From the IMG/VR virus record IMGVR_UViG_3300035182_001716, positions 1 to 20,913 of that record: a stretch of DNA of 20,913 bases, one strand, 5' to 3'. The notes under the pieces were generated by a model. The model saw only the letters and a program-made list of their open reading frames with translations, was not told where the DNA came from and searched no databases. The stretch comes from a virus. Positions 411 through 5,443 of the stretch are shown piece after piece (within the stretch, counting starts at the first letter, position 1; every line of letters starts with the position of its first letter). Position numbers and translations under genes: made by a program.

Positions 411-2003
411 TTACAGTTTGCCTGTAGCGAAGTTGCTAATCAGTTGCGGAACAGCTGAATCAAAACCAACAATATCCAAAGAATGGCTATCAGTTGGGTC
501 AGCTACGGAAAAGTTAGTGACCGTAGTACCACAAATGACATATCTAGCTTCTTTGTTGAATGAACCGCGGAACTGCTCCAATGCTTGACGTGGGTGGCAA
601 CCACGATTAACTTCATTGTCAGTGATTGACACGAAACAATCCACTGGCAATTTATTTGCAATTGCGTAATCGACTGGAGCGGCCAAGTTGGTAGAGCTCC
701 AATTAAAACGACGTACAACTTCCATTGCTTCATTCAAACTCATTCGGTCATGAATGTTCAGCTCGCTAAAGCCAGTGCTAAAGCCACAGATAACATAGTT
801 TTTCTCGGTTTTCATGATAGCCATCGCGATAACAGTAGCCGCTTCAGCCGCAGTGATGTTGTCCAAACCATATACGTGAGTGTTAAACATTGAGCCAGAG
901 CAGTCTATGCCAAGCAAGAAATTTTTGCCGGTTGGCTCAACATTTTTGAAGGCTTCATAAAAAGCTGCGTCCAGTGCACTAACGATACGTTGGTTTGGTT
1001 GCCAAGTCAAAGAACCTTTAACACTACGTCCAGAACTGTAAGTTTTCAATGCAGCCAATACGTTGATTGGGTGAATACGAGAGCGCTTCAGTAATTCAGT
1101 ATCAGAAAGTAAGTTGATAACAGTTTTTGATGCATCAGACAATGAGCCTAACATACCAATGCTTGACATACGACCAAGGTTACGTAGCAACGCGGTATAA
1201 CCGATTTTTTCAATTAGTTTTTCCCAGATTTGAGAATTACGTAATAGCTGAGTTGGCAGCATTTCCCAAGTTAATCCGTCGTTTTCGATTGCTATGATTG
1301 CATTTTTAACCGTTGGGTTTGCATGCAGTTCAGAGAAGACGCGAACAATTTTAGGAGAAGTTTCAGTGACTTCTTTTGTCACTGCCCAACGATACGCATT
1401 TGAGCGCTCTTCGGTATCTGGTTTAACGTGAGCCAAGCGCAATACGTCACGGTGTGACCAACCATCACGGCTTTGGTATTTCAGCATTTGGAAAACAACT
1501 TTGTCGAGTTCTTTTTTGTTGTACCAGGCAGAGATACCACGTTTTGCAACTGCATTCCATTTACCTAACTGATTAACCGTCTCAACGAATTGAAACAAGT
1601 GTGTACCGATGCGGCAAACTTTTGGCAGAGCGTCATATGCAGCTTTACGACCAGCTTCATCAGCATAGATGGAAGTCAATGCCAAAGCGAAGATTGCTGG
1701 GTCATTTTTAGGTGCGCGACCGCCATTTGAAATTTCAACGATACGGTTAACAACAGTGATTGCGTCTTGTTTGATGAGCTTAATTACATTTGTCGCGGCA
1801 GCTTCAGTCAGTTTTTTTGCTGAAGTGTAGTACGTTGGGCGGTCACTTCCCAATATCAAAAATCTGTCCAAATAGCCCCAGTCATCAAGCTTAAACGTAT
1901 AGCCACCAGTTGAGTTGACAACCATTTCAGCTTCACGACCAACGATAGAACAAGTTACTGGAGTATTTTGAGTTGCTTGCTTGAGGGTTTTTGCATATGA
2001 CAT
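411..2003 (-). CDS. rsr: Ro60/Rsr-type RNA-binding protein (TROVE domain plus vWA)
   Basis: The 530-residue protein has the usual Ro60 length and order. A HEAT-like TROVE ring occupies about residues 15-355, with the signature stretch KYQSRDGWSHRDVLRLAH (175-192) and ALLRNLGRM (271-279). A von Willebrand factor A fold follows from about 360. Its metal-ion-dependent adhesion site is complete: D367-x-S369-x-S371, T438 and D462. Ro proteins bind misfolded RNA ends in the ring and Y RNAs on its outer face; in bacteria, Rsr with a Y RNA can tether an exoribonuclease. The start is supported by GGAG just upstream of the ATG. The leader upstream of the gene (2058-2264) is a dense run of stem-loops and is the obvious candidate for the RNA partner. 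The family call is firm; the role in phage infection is inferred. Confidence 0.96.
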   Translation of the reverse strand: MSYAKTLKQATQNTPVTCSIVGREAEMVVNSTGGYTFKLDDWGYLDRFLILGSDRPTYYTSAKKLTEAAATNVIKLIKQDAITVVNRIVEISNGGRAPKNDPAIFALALTSIYADEAGRKAAYDALPKVCRIGTHLFQFVETVNQLGKWNAVAKRGISAWYNKKELDKVVFQMLKYQSRDGWSHRDVLRLAHVKPDTEERSNAYRWAVTKEVTETSPKIVRVFSELHANPTVKNAIIAIENDGLTWEMLPTQLLRNSQIWEKLIEKIGYTALLRNLGRMSSIGMLGSLSDASKTVINLLSDTELLKRSRIHPINVLAALKTYSSGRSVKGSLTWQPNQRIVSALDAAFYEAFKNVEPTGKNFLLGIDCSGSMFNTHVYGLDNITAAEAATVIAMAIMKTEKNYVICGFSTGFSELNIHDRMSLNEAMEVVRRFNWSSTNLAAPVDYAIANKLPVDCFVSITDNEVNRGCHPRQALEQFRGSFNKEARYVICGTTVTNFSVADPTDSHSLDIVGFDSAVPQLISNFATGKL

Positions 2004-2437: not shown

Positions 2438-2484
2438 TATAACACCACGTAAAATATTTTTACATTTTAGAACGTGGTGTTATA
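2438..2484 (-). terminator. 13-base-pair inverted repeat, probable terminator of the 2498-3061 gene
   Basis: The arms TATAACACCACGT (2438-2450) and ACGTGGTGTTATA (2472-2484) are perfectly complementary across a 21-base AT-rich loop. The structure begins 13 bases after the stop of the gene ending at 2498. Reading in the minus direction, a run of six T follows within a few bases. The loop is long for an intrinsic terminator, so an operator or processing role is possible. Confidence 0.6.
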
Positions 2485-2497
2485 ACTTTGACAGGAA

Positions 2498-3061
2498 TTA
2501 AGCGTCTTTAGTCATCAGTACATCGTCAAACGCACCACCAGCTCCAAAATGAGCTTTAAGCTGATTATAAGCACGTTGATAAAAATTAAACATTTTGTCA
2601 ATGTTCGTTTTTAATTTATTCATTGCCGTTGTATCACCACCTTTTGCGGCTTCTAACTGAGCACGCCATGCTTTCGCTAATGATGGGGCATGAGTTGCTC
2701 CAATATCTTGAAGTAGCTCATCAGCATTACGCTTTTCACTAAATTCTTTGGGCGCATGCGGGTTATCTAAGCCGTCTAAGAATTTAAAAAAGTTTTTAGA
2801 AGCACCTGATTGGTCAATCTTAGAAAAATCGTCTATAACGTCACGATCGTCTTTACGACCTAATAGCTGTAGCCCAGCTAGTGCGTTTGACATCTCGTCT
2901 AATTCATTATCTTCTAAACTTTCAAGTGGGTTTTCATTTTTCAAACCAAACTGCGCATGAAGATGTCCAAGGAACTTATCAACTCGTTCCATCAGAATAA
3001 ATTCTTGCTTATGCTCGTCTCGAATGGTTTGCAACTCTACCAAGAGTTCAAGTGCAGCCAT
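2498..3061 (-). CDS. Uncharacterised helical phage protein, probably late
   Basis: This is a 187-residue soluble protein with no signal peptide or membrane segment. It is rich in charged and leucine residues and looks almost entirely helical, with an acidic middle around LEDNELDEMS and a glycine-rich turn (FGAGGAFDD) near the C-terminus. The ATG is preceded at good spacing by AAAGGAG. A perfect TATAAATA late promoter lies at 3126-3133, and a strong inverted repeat closes the gene at 2438-2484, so it appears to be a single-gene late transcript. The family is not recognised. Late expression would fit a virion or assembly role, but nothing in the protein itself shows this. Confidence 0.85.
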   Translation of the reverse strand: MAALELLVELQTIRDEHKQEFILMERVDKFLGHLHAQFGLKNENPLESLEDNELDEMSNALAGLQLLGRKDDRDVIDDFSKIDQSGASKNFFKFLDGLDNPHAPKEFSEKRNADELLQDIGATHAPSLAKAWRAQLEAAKGGDTTAMNKLKTNIDKMFNFYQRAYNQLKAHFGAGGAFDDVLMTKDA

Positions 3062-3125
3062 GTGTATCTCCTTTAAAAAGTATGTTTTTCAATTTGCAAA
3101 TTGAGCTATAATTTAGCCATAACAC

Positions 3126-3133
3126 TATTTATA
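3126..3133 (-). promoter_or_regulatory. T4-like late promoter (TATAAATA)
   Basis: The exact T4 late consensus TATAAATA lies on the minus strand 65 bases before the ATG of the 187-residue gene. A palindrome CAATTTGCAAATTG (3090-3103) lies in the leader between them. The call is by motif and position only. Confidence 0.6.
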
Positions 3134-3353
3134 TGCTTGCATAATGGAACTGCTACGAAAACTGACAGACTAAGGGTCTTGTCTCTGTCTCTGCGCGCTT
3201 ATCTTCAGCTTTTCAAAAACGTAGCACTCATAAAAGGAGATTTAATTGCCTCTTTTTTATGAACTAATGAAGTACTATGAAAACTGACAGACTAAGGGTC
3301 TTGTCTGCGTCTCTGCGCGCTTATCTTCAGCTTTTCAAAAACGTAGCCTTTAT

Positions 3354-3513
3354 GAAATTCACTTCTATGCAATTTTAAAATTCAGCAAATAGGTTCATTT
3401 ATAATTTCAATTAAAATTGCACAGAAGTGACCTGCGTCATTCAGATCAATCAAATTTCTTTTTTTCTTTTTGACTTATCTAGCATCATCTTTGTCTTTTT
3501 CCAAAACATAGCG
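3354..3513 (+). repeat. B module, copy 1 (promoter/leader-like)
   Basis: This 160-base element follows the second A unit of composite unit 1. It contains AATAGGTTCAT followed by TATAAT, then AGTGACCTGCGTCATTCAGA, then a pyrimidine-rich tract. Its last 40 or so bases resemble the 3' half of an A unit, so it looks like an A unit whose 5' half was replaced by leader-type sequence. TATAAT is a perfect sigma70 -10 element, but no good -35 lies 17 bases upstream. Confidence 0.8.
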
Positions 3514-3763
3514 TTTTTGAAAAGACGGATTATTTTGCCCTCTTTTTGTATCGATGAACTACTACGAAAACTGACAGACTAAGGGTCTTGTCTCTGTCTC
3601 TGCGCGCTTATCTTCAGCTTTTCAAAAACGTAGCACTCATAAAAGGAGACTTAATTTTCTCTTTTTTGTATCAGGGGAACTGCTACGAAAACTGACAGAC
3701 TAAGGGTCTTGTCTGCGTCTCTGCGCATTTCTTTTTTCGTCTTTTTAAAAACGTAGCGTTCAT

Positions 3764-3923
3764 GAAATTCACTTCTGTGCAATTTTAAAATTCAACAAAT
3801 AGGTTCATTTATAATTTCAATTAAAATTCAACAGGGGTGACCTGCGTCATTCAGATCAATCAAATTTCTTTTTTTCTTTTTGACTTGTCTCGCATCATCT
3901 TTGTCTTTTTCCAAAACGTAGCG
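3764..3923 (+). repeat. B module, copy 2
   Basis: This copy has the same 160-base length as the first and is nearly identical to it from AAATTCACTTCTGTGCAATT through the TATAAT box and GGGGTGACCTGCGTCATT to the terminal CAAAACGTAGCG. It sits after the second A unit of composite unit 2. Confidence 0.85.
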
Positions 3924-4138
3924 TTTTTTGTGAACTACTACGAAAACTGACAGACTAAGGGTCTTGTCTCTGTCTCTGCGCGCTTATCTTCAGCTTTTCA
4001 AAAACGTAGCACTCATAAAAGGAGATTTAATTGCCTCTTTTTTGGGACCAATGAACTGCTATGAAAACTGACAGACTAAGGGTCTTGTCTCGCTTGCAAA
4101 TATTCTCTCTCTCGTCTTTTCAAAAACGTAGCCTTTTT

Positions 4139-4307
4139 AAAAATCACTTCTGTGCTATTTTAAAATTCAGCAAATAGGTTCATTCATAATTTCAATCAAA
4201 ATTCAACAGGGGTGACCTGTGTCATTCAGATCAATTGAATTTCTTTTTTTCTATTTTAACTTGTCTCGCTTGCAAATATTTCTCTCAGCTTTTTCCAAAA
4301 TGCAGTG
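4139..4307 (+). repeat. B module, copy 3 (more diverged)
   Basis: This copy has the AATAGGTTCATTCATAATTT and GGGGTGACCTG blocks. Its tail carries TTGTCTCGCTTGCAAATATT (4261-4280), identical to 4085-4104 inside the A unit just upstream, which points to gene conversion or unequal crossing-over between A and B elements. Confidence 0.8.
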
Positions 4308-4399
4308 TTTTTGTGAACTGCTATGAAAACTGACAGACTAAGGGTCTTGTCTCTGTCTCGCAATTTCTTTTTTCGTCTTTTTGAAAACGTAGCACTCAT

Positions 4400-4430
4400 A
4401 AAAAAAGAGACAATTAAGTCTCTTTTTTTT
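4400..4430 (+). terminator. Intrinsic terminator in the repeat array
   Basis: AAAAAAGAGAC pairs perfectly with GTCTCTTTTTT across a loop of AATTAA and is followed by further T residues. It is the best-preserved version of the weaker hairpins that follow the other odd-numbered A units (3232-3258, 3641-3667, 4017-4043, 4451-4477). The A-rich 5' arm would let it work in either direction. Confidence 0.8.
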
Positions 4431-4606
4431 GAACTAATGAAGTACTACGAAAAAGGAGATTTAATTGCCTCTTTTTTGTATCAGCGAACTGCTACGAAAA
4501 CTGACAGACTAAGGGTCTTGTCTGCGTCTCTGCGCATTTCTCTCAGCTTTTTTAAAAACGTAGCCTTTCCTCATCGTTGTGTCCTAAATGACATCATTTA
4601 GCCAGT

Positions 4607-4614
4607 GATAAATA
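4607..4614 (+). promoter_or_regulatory. Possible late promoter (GATAAATA) before the nuclease gene
   Basis: GATAAATA matches the late consensus at seven of eight bases and is the same variant as the one at 20743-20750. It lies 121 bases before the nuclease ATG, just after a small perfect hairpin, CTAAATG-ACAT-CATTTAG (4584-4601). Confidence 0.35.
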
Positions 4615-4648
4615 ATTTACAATTTAATAAATTGCGTTTAGTGATGAT

Positions 4649-4735
4649 TTAAATTGTAGTAATAGGTTCACATATCATTTAAATTAAAATTTAACTGAGG
4701 TGATCAGCTTCATTCAGAACAAATAAACTACACCT
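4649..4735 (+). repeat. B module, copy 4: diverged copy forming the nuclease leader
   Basis: AATAGGTTCACATATCATTT, GAGGTGATCAGC and TTCATTCAGAACAA align in order and spacing with the central part of copies 1-3. Here the module leads straight into the ATG at 4736 instead of a pyrimidine tract. TATAAT has become TATCAT. Either this is the ancestral leader from which the other copies were amplified, or the nuclease was captured next to an existing array. Confidence 0.7.
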
Positions 4736-5443
4736 ATGAATAAATTTATTTTTACAATTTTAACATGTTTAAGCCTCAGTTCAGCATATGGATGTACGGA
4801 GGTTGATGAGCAGTTTTTACCAAAGCAAAACATTTCAACGATTGATTTATGCAGGACAGACTATCAGGTTGCATATTCACTTGAGCTAAAAAGTCCGATA
4901 TGGGTTGGAGAAACATTAACGGCTGAAGAGATTAGTGCCGCTATAGTTCGCGTCAATATGTTTAGGGCCGACCCAACTTTAAATCATGGCGAACGCGCGG
5001 AATTGGCTGATTATTCAGATAGTGGATACGATCGAGGTCATTTATTCTCGGCTTTAGATTCAAGCTCTGAAAAGGCTATGGAAGAAAGTTTTTATTTGTC
5101 AAATATGGTTCCACAGTTGCCAGCAAATAATCGTGGCATTTGGAATCAGTTAGAGCGTAGAGTTCGAGACATGGCGGTTAAACAGAGAAAATTAATTATT
5201 TTTTCAGGACCAGTTTTTGTGAGAGATAATCGGACAATTGGCGATAATCATATTCCAGTTCCGATGGATTTGTTCAAGGTAATTTACGACCCAGCCACTC
5301 AAACCGTTTTAACTTTCATTATCCCAAATCAAAAAGTTTCAAATTTTAAGCATTATGTCTCTAATTTAAAAACCTTAGCTGAAAAAACTGGATTGACCTT
5401 TTTTGCCGGTCAACCAGTTAAAGAACTTAATTATATTAACTAG
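4736..5443 (+). CDS. Exported DNA/RNA non-specific endonuclease (NUC family)
   Basis: This 235-residue protein starts with a Sec-type signal peptide: K3, a hydrophobic core FIFTILTCLSLSS, then AYG-C near residue 20. The DRGH motif (residues 99-102) supplies the general-base histidine H102. The downstream segment LPANNRGIWNQLE (128-140) supplies the magnesium-binding asparagine, the conserved W and E. This is the His-Me finger nuclease family of Serratia nuclease and NUC1, which cleaves single- and double-stranded DNA and RNA. The product should act in the periplasm or outside the cell. C20 is not in a good lipobox, so a lipoprotein is unlikely. No strong ribosome binding site precedes the ATG. 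The gene is the only intact plus-strand gene in the left half, has its own repeat-rich leader, and ends overlapping the convergent gene by 8 bases, all of which suggests a self-contained accessory (moron-like) insertion. Confidence 0.93.
   Translation: MNKFIFTILTCLSLSSAYGCTEVDEQFLPKQNISTIDLCRTDYQVAYSLELKSPIWVGETLTAEEISAAIVRVNMFRADPTLNHGERAELADYSDSGYDRGHLFSALDSSSEKAMEESFYLSNMVPQLPANNRGIWNQLERRVRDMAVKQRKLIIFSGPVFVRDNRTIGDNHIPVPMDLFKVIYDPATQTVLTFIIPNQKVSNFKHYVSNLKTLAEKTGLTFFAGQPVKELNYIN

Follow-up and report, generated by a model that had tools for sequence, protein, structure and literature searches.

A tandem repeat array in an uncultured T4-like phage lineage as a possible expansion of intergenic control cassettes

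The viral DNA analyzed here (IMG/VR record IMGVR_UViG_3300035182_001716, positions 1 to 20,913; hereafter the window, 20,913 nt in all) carries at 3152-4735 a tandem array that we tentatively read, with a probability of roughly 0.4, as an expanded form of intergenic control cassettes in an uncultured T4-like phage lineage, built on a motif that resembles a protein-binding site and present in copies that recombine with one another. The 15-nt motif, AAAACTGWCAGACTA, precedes a pyrimidine-rich tract located on the same strand. It is the part common to the three clades in which such cassettes were found, and we take it to be the older part of the repeat, of which the array is the expanded form.

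A preliminary description of the window had proposed an array of A units, terminator hairpins, and B modules running into a nuclease gene, with composite periods of 409, 376, and 383 nt; these components, their order, and the periods were all recovered. The array holds 8 A units, 6 hairpins with runs of A and T, and 4 B modules. The A units, 73 nt long in their usual form and all on the plus strand, lie at 3153-3225, 3275-3347, 3562-3634, 3683-3757, 3938-4010, 4059-4132, 4321-4393, and 4492-4564, at uneven spacings of 122, 287, 121, 255, 121, 262, and 171 nt, and three of them (3275, 4059, and 4321) carry the CTATG variant. A 116-nt stretch recurs in eight copies, each at least 62% identical to the reference copy, which is far above chance. 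The terminator-like hairpins were identified by folding at 3232-3258 (A run 5' and T run 3', such that either direction is possible), 3519-3547 (with one mismatch, 3' of a truncated A unit), 3641-3667, 4400-4429 (stem GAGAC/GTCTC), and 4450-4477 (3' of a CTACG stub), and at 4017-4043 by identity in sequence to the first. The B modules, on the plus strand, occupy 3359-3454 (with long inverted repeat arms at 3359-3378 and 3411-3430), 3769-3864, 4144-4239, and 4648-4727.

The fourfold order A-terminator-A-B given earlier holds for the first three periods, with the addition of an element that had been missed. By inspection, each of B modules 1-3 is followed by a 5'-truncated A unit, A', on the plus strand, at about 3473-3512 (with equivalents in the contig G001), about 3883-3922, and about 4260-4305 (weak profile matches in the G001 copy, E 0.017 and 0.0015, respectively), and the period is therefore A-T-A-B-A', where T is the hairpin. 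An additional hairpin lies 3' of the first A', and the fourth period departs from the pattern by also containing a CTACG stub and a hairpin at 4441-4477. Its B module is diverged (78%) and constitutes the leader of the nuclease gene, directly before the start of the DNA/RNA non-specific endonuclease (PF01223; 4736-5443, plus strand), which has, by eye, a signal-peptide-like beginning. On the other side, and divergent from the array, is a gene of 187 aa with no assigned function (2498-3061, minus strand), the orthologue of which (54%) adjoins the motif in clade 2, followed by a Ro60-like protein with TROVE and vWA_Ro60 domain matches (411-2003, minus strand). Reading the A unit as coding sequence was ruled out, as the first 32 nt change only at position 4 (C/T) and lengths of 70-75 nt disrupt the frame. 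The B modules end in a small hairpin, the stems of which vary by eye (CAGG/CCTG, CTGA/TCAG, and AACAG/CTGTT), and the wobble evidence on strand from their long arms is, by eye, mixed. Searches with a B motif found 12 stretches in viral contigs (3 of them on contigs already known and 9 judged unrelated by eye), 15 phage records of which the 12 listed all have an E value of 4, and no match in plasmids.

The window includes genes for a T4-type portal protein and prohead protease, along with PhoH, Ro60, and Endonuclease_NS genes, and among phage records its capsid protein is closest to that of Xanthomonas phage XacN1 (54%). This contrasts with the Ro60-like protein, for which 348 of the 352 matching phage records are named for actinobacterial hosts. 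The related sequences are metagenome contigs. One of them, the 164-kb IMG/VR contig G001, matches the window at 99.93% identity over its positions 58659-79571, and a unit profile search located 37 full A units, 22 of them distinct, in nine records; 21 are in G001, among which the eight of the window recur. The array is thus not unique, G001 having four: A1 at 96-1057, at the contig start, A2 at 61811-63222, which is that of the window, A3 at 99302-100210 on the minus strand, and A4 at 140828-141160. The contig begins about 95 nt ahead of A1, rather than within it. Directly before A4, at 139043-140401, is a gene for an exported-looking protein with, by eye, a metalloprotease-like HExxH sequence, such that this protein and the nuclease of the window are both exported-looking and near an array. 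ARAGORN predicts 11 tRNA genes in G001 and 20 in the clade-2 genome G011.

Single A units adjoin the terminase gene in the contigs G003, G006, and G008, and a tail gene in G004 and at the corresponding place in G002. The terminase family PF17289 matches G002 and G004 among eight records, and the terminase of G004 belongs to phrog_10250; the same family also misses G006 and G008, though PHROG profiles recognize the G003 copy of that terminase, and it is therefore uninformative on G001. Proteins of G011 match both G001 (60) and G006/G008 (19), which makes it probable that G001 and the terminase contigs represent a single type of genome. With a different terminase and, at the protein level, a single weak match to the lineage (23%, E 2e-12), G002 and G004 look like a different and apparently unrelated phage that shares the unit. 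Positions 3267-3310 of G002, between two of its genes, hold a hairpin resembling the end of a B module (GGTGATCTG-CTTCATT-CAGATCACC). A gapped end-to-end pattern of the unit retrieved four further contigs, all four of which were judged unrelated by eye.

Among the 22 distinct A units, the first 32 nt, the TAAGG stretch among them, are the same but for one C/T position, in line with the invariant core noted earlier, and the 3' part is variable. A 17-nt piece of the core found 42 stretches in viral contigs, 12 known and 30 new. All 30 new stretches lie in look-alike cassettes, many identical to one another, that make up clade 2; protein kinship was checked for the records behind nine of its loci (L110, L114, L116-L122) and the terminase loci. 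By eye, about two-thirds of these cassettes contain the pair AAAAACTGACAGACTATATAAT and AAAAACTGACAGACTAAGGGTATAT, separated by 61 nt and followed by a pyrimidine-rich stretch. In clade 3, found at three loci of a single metagenome by a search whose other two hits (of five) are unrelated, AAAAAACTGTCAGACTATTGG is followed by a longer pyrimidine-rich tract. Two observations on the clade-2 records stand apart from the motif: the cassettes at L114 and L116-L121 also contain, by eye, another dispersed module in which a hairpin accompanies GTTGATTTTATTACT-type repeats, and the Rfam permuted tmRNA family scores above its gathering threshold (64 versus 47 bits) at L116:3361-3583 and L122:3484-3706, in phage records G009 and G015, where ARAGORN lists nothing.

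What distinguishes the motif is its strictness. Its one variable position lies at the center of the dyad CTG-W-CAG, and exact copies number 21 in G001, 4 in G011, and 1 each in G006, G008, G002, and G004. A mismatch count independent of the exact-pattern search returned no copies with one mismatch in these six records; the single site with two mismatches listed for G001 and G011 is inside an ORF, and there are none in the other four. When 31 terminase loci were collected on the basis of protein similarity, the exact motif (W allowed) was present in 14, its strand with respect to the terminase being the same in every case. The motif is limited to the lineage, because the remaining 17 are without it; they include three (L047, L048, and L052) at 64-66% terminase identity, close to the 67% of clade 2.

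Protein matches together with synteny place the motif at orthologous gene borders. It adjoins the terminase gene and the A3 gene in clades 1, 2, and 3, and in clades 1 and 2 it also adjoins the Ro60-side gene, lies at the A1 border, and precedes the nuclease gene. Its orientation is alike between clades at each of these shared borders; at one further border, compared between L121 and L124, the orientations are opposite. Identities between the matching flanking proteins of different clades are 66 and 73% for terminase, 54% for both Ro60 and the 187-aa gene product, 36 and 63% for the A1 genes, 42% for the nuclease, and 43 and 46% for the A3 gene (with 67% in clade 3 for the 1221-aa gene flanking it on the opposite side). 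G011 and the genomes of the G001 type are otherwise distant, with 79 of 197 G011 ORFs matched at a median of 42%. The neighbors across the motif also differ: the gene next to the nuclease gene across the motif is the Ro60-side gene in G001 and the A3 gene in G011, and in G009 the motif separates the Ro60-side gene from a 769-aa ORF that has no blastp match in G001. Such differences fit with exchange at the motif, although they could also have arisen by the gain or loss of genes.

The units themselves appear to exchange sequence, with recombination the likely cause of differences that fall in blocks. Comparison of G006 with G008 gives 9 differences in the unit, all confined to a single 13-nt block, and 8 across 6734 nt of flanking sequence, a case most simply explained by gene conversion from other units. 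Between G006 and G003 there are 10 differences in the unit and 14 in 6927 flanking nt, and between G008 and G003 there are 1 and 3, respectively. For G001 and G007, the counts are 5 in the 391-nt array and 53 in the remainder of 17,248 nt. Counting against exchange, all 14 differences between the window and G001 lie outside the array, and the one between G005 and G001 is outside the unit. G002 and G004 present the opposite pattern to that of the terminase contigs, with 1 difference in the unit and flanks that differ more (395 differences in the alignment used for the unit; 95.3% identity over 2539 nt in a separate comparison).

The analysis also considered whether the A unit acts as RNA or DNA. 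An RNA function had been favored in the preliminary description on the grounds that the paired ends of the CTATG copies remain paired, through G-U, in plus-strand RNA alone. The pairing of CTAYG with YGTAG is indeed seen in all 22 distinct units, and the strand argument survives on this larger set: the five outer pairs are kept in 22 of 22, and each of the 11 cells that change is a G-U pair in plus-strand RNA. Covariation over the copies, the check suggested at the time, did not follow, as none of 13 pairs shows a two-sided change in the 22 distinct units and the covariation term of RNAalifold is 0, but 11 of the 13 pairs are uninformative in this respect because they never vary. The hairpin drawn around TAAGG is specific to the clade of the window, being absent in clades 2 and 3. 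Overall, the earlier interpretation has partial support.

The signals around the motif point both ways. Taking offsets picked for each clade after inspection, and copies that are not independent, the pyrimidine share of the 50 nt after the motif is 0.68 (23 copies), 0.71 (12 copies), and 0.84 (3 copies), against a background of 0.50 (S.D. 0.08) in 2018 intergenic windows on both strands. At 6 of 16 loci, three of these six being one locus in three clades, a late-promoter-like word occurs on the opposite strand 26-34 nt ahead of the motif; 11 of 16 have one within 400 nt and the other 5 have none. The background of 0.11 per 400 nt is genome-wide, coding sequence included, rather than intergenic. 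In the window this word is the ATAAATA at 3126-3132 (minus strand), which precedes the first core motif by 32 nt, and ATAAATA-type words are enriched before genes in G001. By a consensus scan, σ70-like promoters at 2450-4760 number 4, where 6.8 (S.D. 2.4) are expected in shuffled sequence, and a σ70 promoter reading of the array is unsupported, its sites being not above chance. A terminator scanner gave 6 hits against 1.4, all in A units and B modules and none on the A/T-run hairpins. The stems of these hairpins differ between copies with compensation, as seen by inspection of 14 that were folded, and their mean folding energies of -9.95 (plus) and -10.25 (minus) kcal/mol indicate no strand preference. 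At the single-unit loci, no clear terminator was seen by eye. In sum, the 11 wobble cells, the compensated hairpin stems, and the fixed strand of the pyrimidine tract point toward a plus-strand RNA, whereas the strict dyad, the loss of the hairpin in other clades, the lack of a promoter above chance and of covariation, and the late-promoter-like word on the opposite strand point toward DNA. On this evidence, a control cassette with a protein-binding motif is favored over a structured RNA.

A cassette would then consist of the strict motif, the same-strand pyrimidine-rich tract, and, in arrays, the A/T-run hairpins. We envisage the motif as a binding site for a phage protein, through which expression from the gene border would be set, in part by action on the late promoter of the opposite strand. 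The hairpins would end transcription crossing the border in both directions, their stops giving rise to short pyrimidine-rich plus-strand RNAs. Recombination between copies would homogenize the units and make the genes on either side exchangeable. On the best reading, by analogy, such cassettes would work most like the PeSLs, mobile regulatory cassettes of T4-type phages reportedly described by Arbiol et al. in 2010. PeSL cassettes are reported to have a strong σ70-like early promoter and a terminator stem-loop, and to occur as dispersed, recombining intergenic copies associated with the shuffling of modules. Common to both are dispersed intergenic cassettes with stem-loops and the apparent shuffling of neighboring genes, recombination being our inference here. 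Unlike the PeSLs, the array has a strict motif, a pyrimidine tract, long tandem arrays, and a motif kept at orthologous loci over deep divergence, and it is without a σ70-like promoter detectable by consensus scan; because this promoter was sought and not found, we do not class the array among them.

Unlikely, to our minds, is the proposal that the units encode small trans-acting phage RNAs, with a fixed 5' part, an intrinsic terminator, and a variable region, rich in pyrimidines, for pairing with purine-rich ribosome-binding sites. The asymmetry of outer-stem wobble on the plus strand (11 cells to 0), the same-strand pyrimidine-rich tract in three clades, the terminator-like hairpins 3' of many units and within some clade-2 cassettes, and the varying stems (by eye) of the hairpin ending the B modules would all be in keeping with this. 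The consensus scan, however, gives no promoters above chance in the array, single-unit loci have no clear terminator, the core hairpin is not conserved between clades, and no Rfam family reaches its gathering threshold in the stretches scanned at these loci. A bolder form of the idea, in which lineage-wide small RNAs with a fixed 5' motif and a pyrimidine-rich, variable middle swapped between copies are exchanged by unrelated phages of the same habitat and bind ribosome-binding sites or an RNA-binding protein, strikes us as improbable. The suggestion that the array is a sponge for the phage Ro60 found no support: the array of the window and one clade-2 locus (two records) are on the Ro60 side and the other loci are not, and no Y RNA family is among the matches listed at E values up to 5 in 3050-4760. 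No Rfam family reaches its gathering threshold in the window; the 22 matches at E values up to 5 in 3050-4760, many on A/T hairpins, are all below it and were taken as chance. The C4 antisense RNA of Acinetobacter, also considered, is not among the Rfam matches listed. Least probable of all, we would say, is a leader and attenuator of the nuclease gene, another earlier suggestion. It is possible because the clade-2 nuclease orthologue (42%) is also downstream of the motif, such that an array or motif pair precedes the gene in clades 1 and 2, and it gains from the B module that serves as nuclease leader and from the B-like hairpin between two genes in G002, but the loci at terminase, at A3 (clades 1 and 3), and on the Ro60 side (clade 2) have no downstream gene on that strand.

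Two further alternatives invoke DNA. That the units are iterons, sites for replication, recombination, or packaging present several times per genome, seems to us rather unlikely. A strict dyad motif in tandem copies at several loci per genome, including one that in three clades lies 3' of the terminase gene, would suit such a role, and in its account of T4 oriE PMC3016281 describes 12-nt, evenly spaced direct repeats at one origin, with an ill-defined role, that lie in syntenic regions of close relatives. Direct repeats in syntenic regions of related phages are thus shared with that example, from which the array differs, as far as that account goes, in its 73-nt units, their uneven spacing, and its several loci. 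The same source describes a shift in nucleotide composition for three T4 origins, and no marked shift occurs at the arrays (slope-change percentiles of 0.0, 0.36, and 0.79 in G001 and 0.1 in G011, with array A1 excluded); nor are a pyrimidine-rich strand and terminator-like hairpins expected of iterons. A selfish, MITE-like element spreading among phages would account for the sharp common ends of the unit, its dispersed copies, its presence in an apparently unrelated phage, and terminal inverted repeats (CTAYG/YGTAG in 22 of 22 distinct units; GCTAYG/YGTAGC in the proposed element). We regard this as very doubtful, as the core is spread more widely than the ends, clades 2 and 3 keeping it at orthologous loci without them, and no target-site duplication was seen by eye.

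Nor was support obtained for the earlier impression of a repetitive element shared with bacterial hosts in the genome contigs, genome sets, or plasmids searched. A 23-mer had 0 hits in bacterial genome contigs, the 12 hits of a looser 21-nt pattern were all in unrelated context by eye, and copies were found in 0 of 398 and 0 of 369 bacterial genomes (overlapping sets with no positive control, their groups not chosen for host). The suggested BLAST comparison gave no match of the array to phages or of the unit to plasmids, a 41-nt piece had none in phages at E values up to 10, and the peptide MKTDRLRVLS was not found in the literature searched. Elements such as RU-1 to RU-3, presented in PMC2759123 as small mobile intergenic repeats of enterobacteria whose open reading frames were examined, are likewise small, dispersed, and intergenic; on that description they differ from the A unit, which was found in phage records only and in none of the bacterial genomes searched.

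Arrays of this kind may break assemblies, as illustrated by contig G005, which ends within one. A strict non-coding motif is found at the same gene borders across clades in which the matching flanking proteins are about 36-73% identical, and both the motif and its putative partner protein can be sought directly. The pattern suggests that the repeats act as joints for the exchange of genes.
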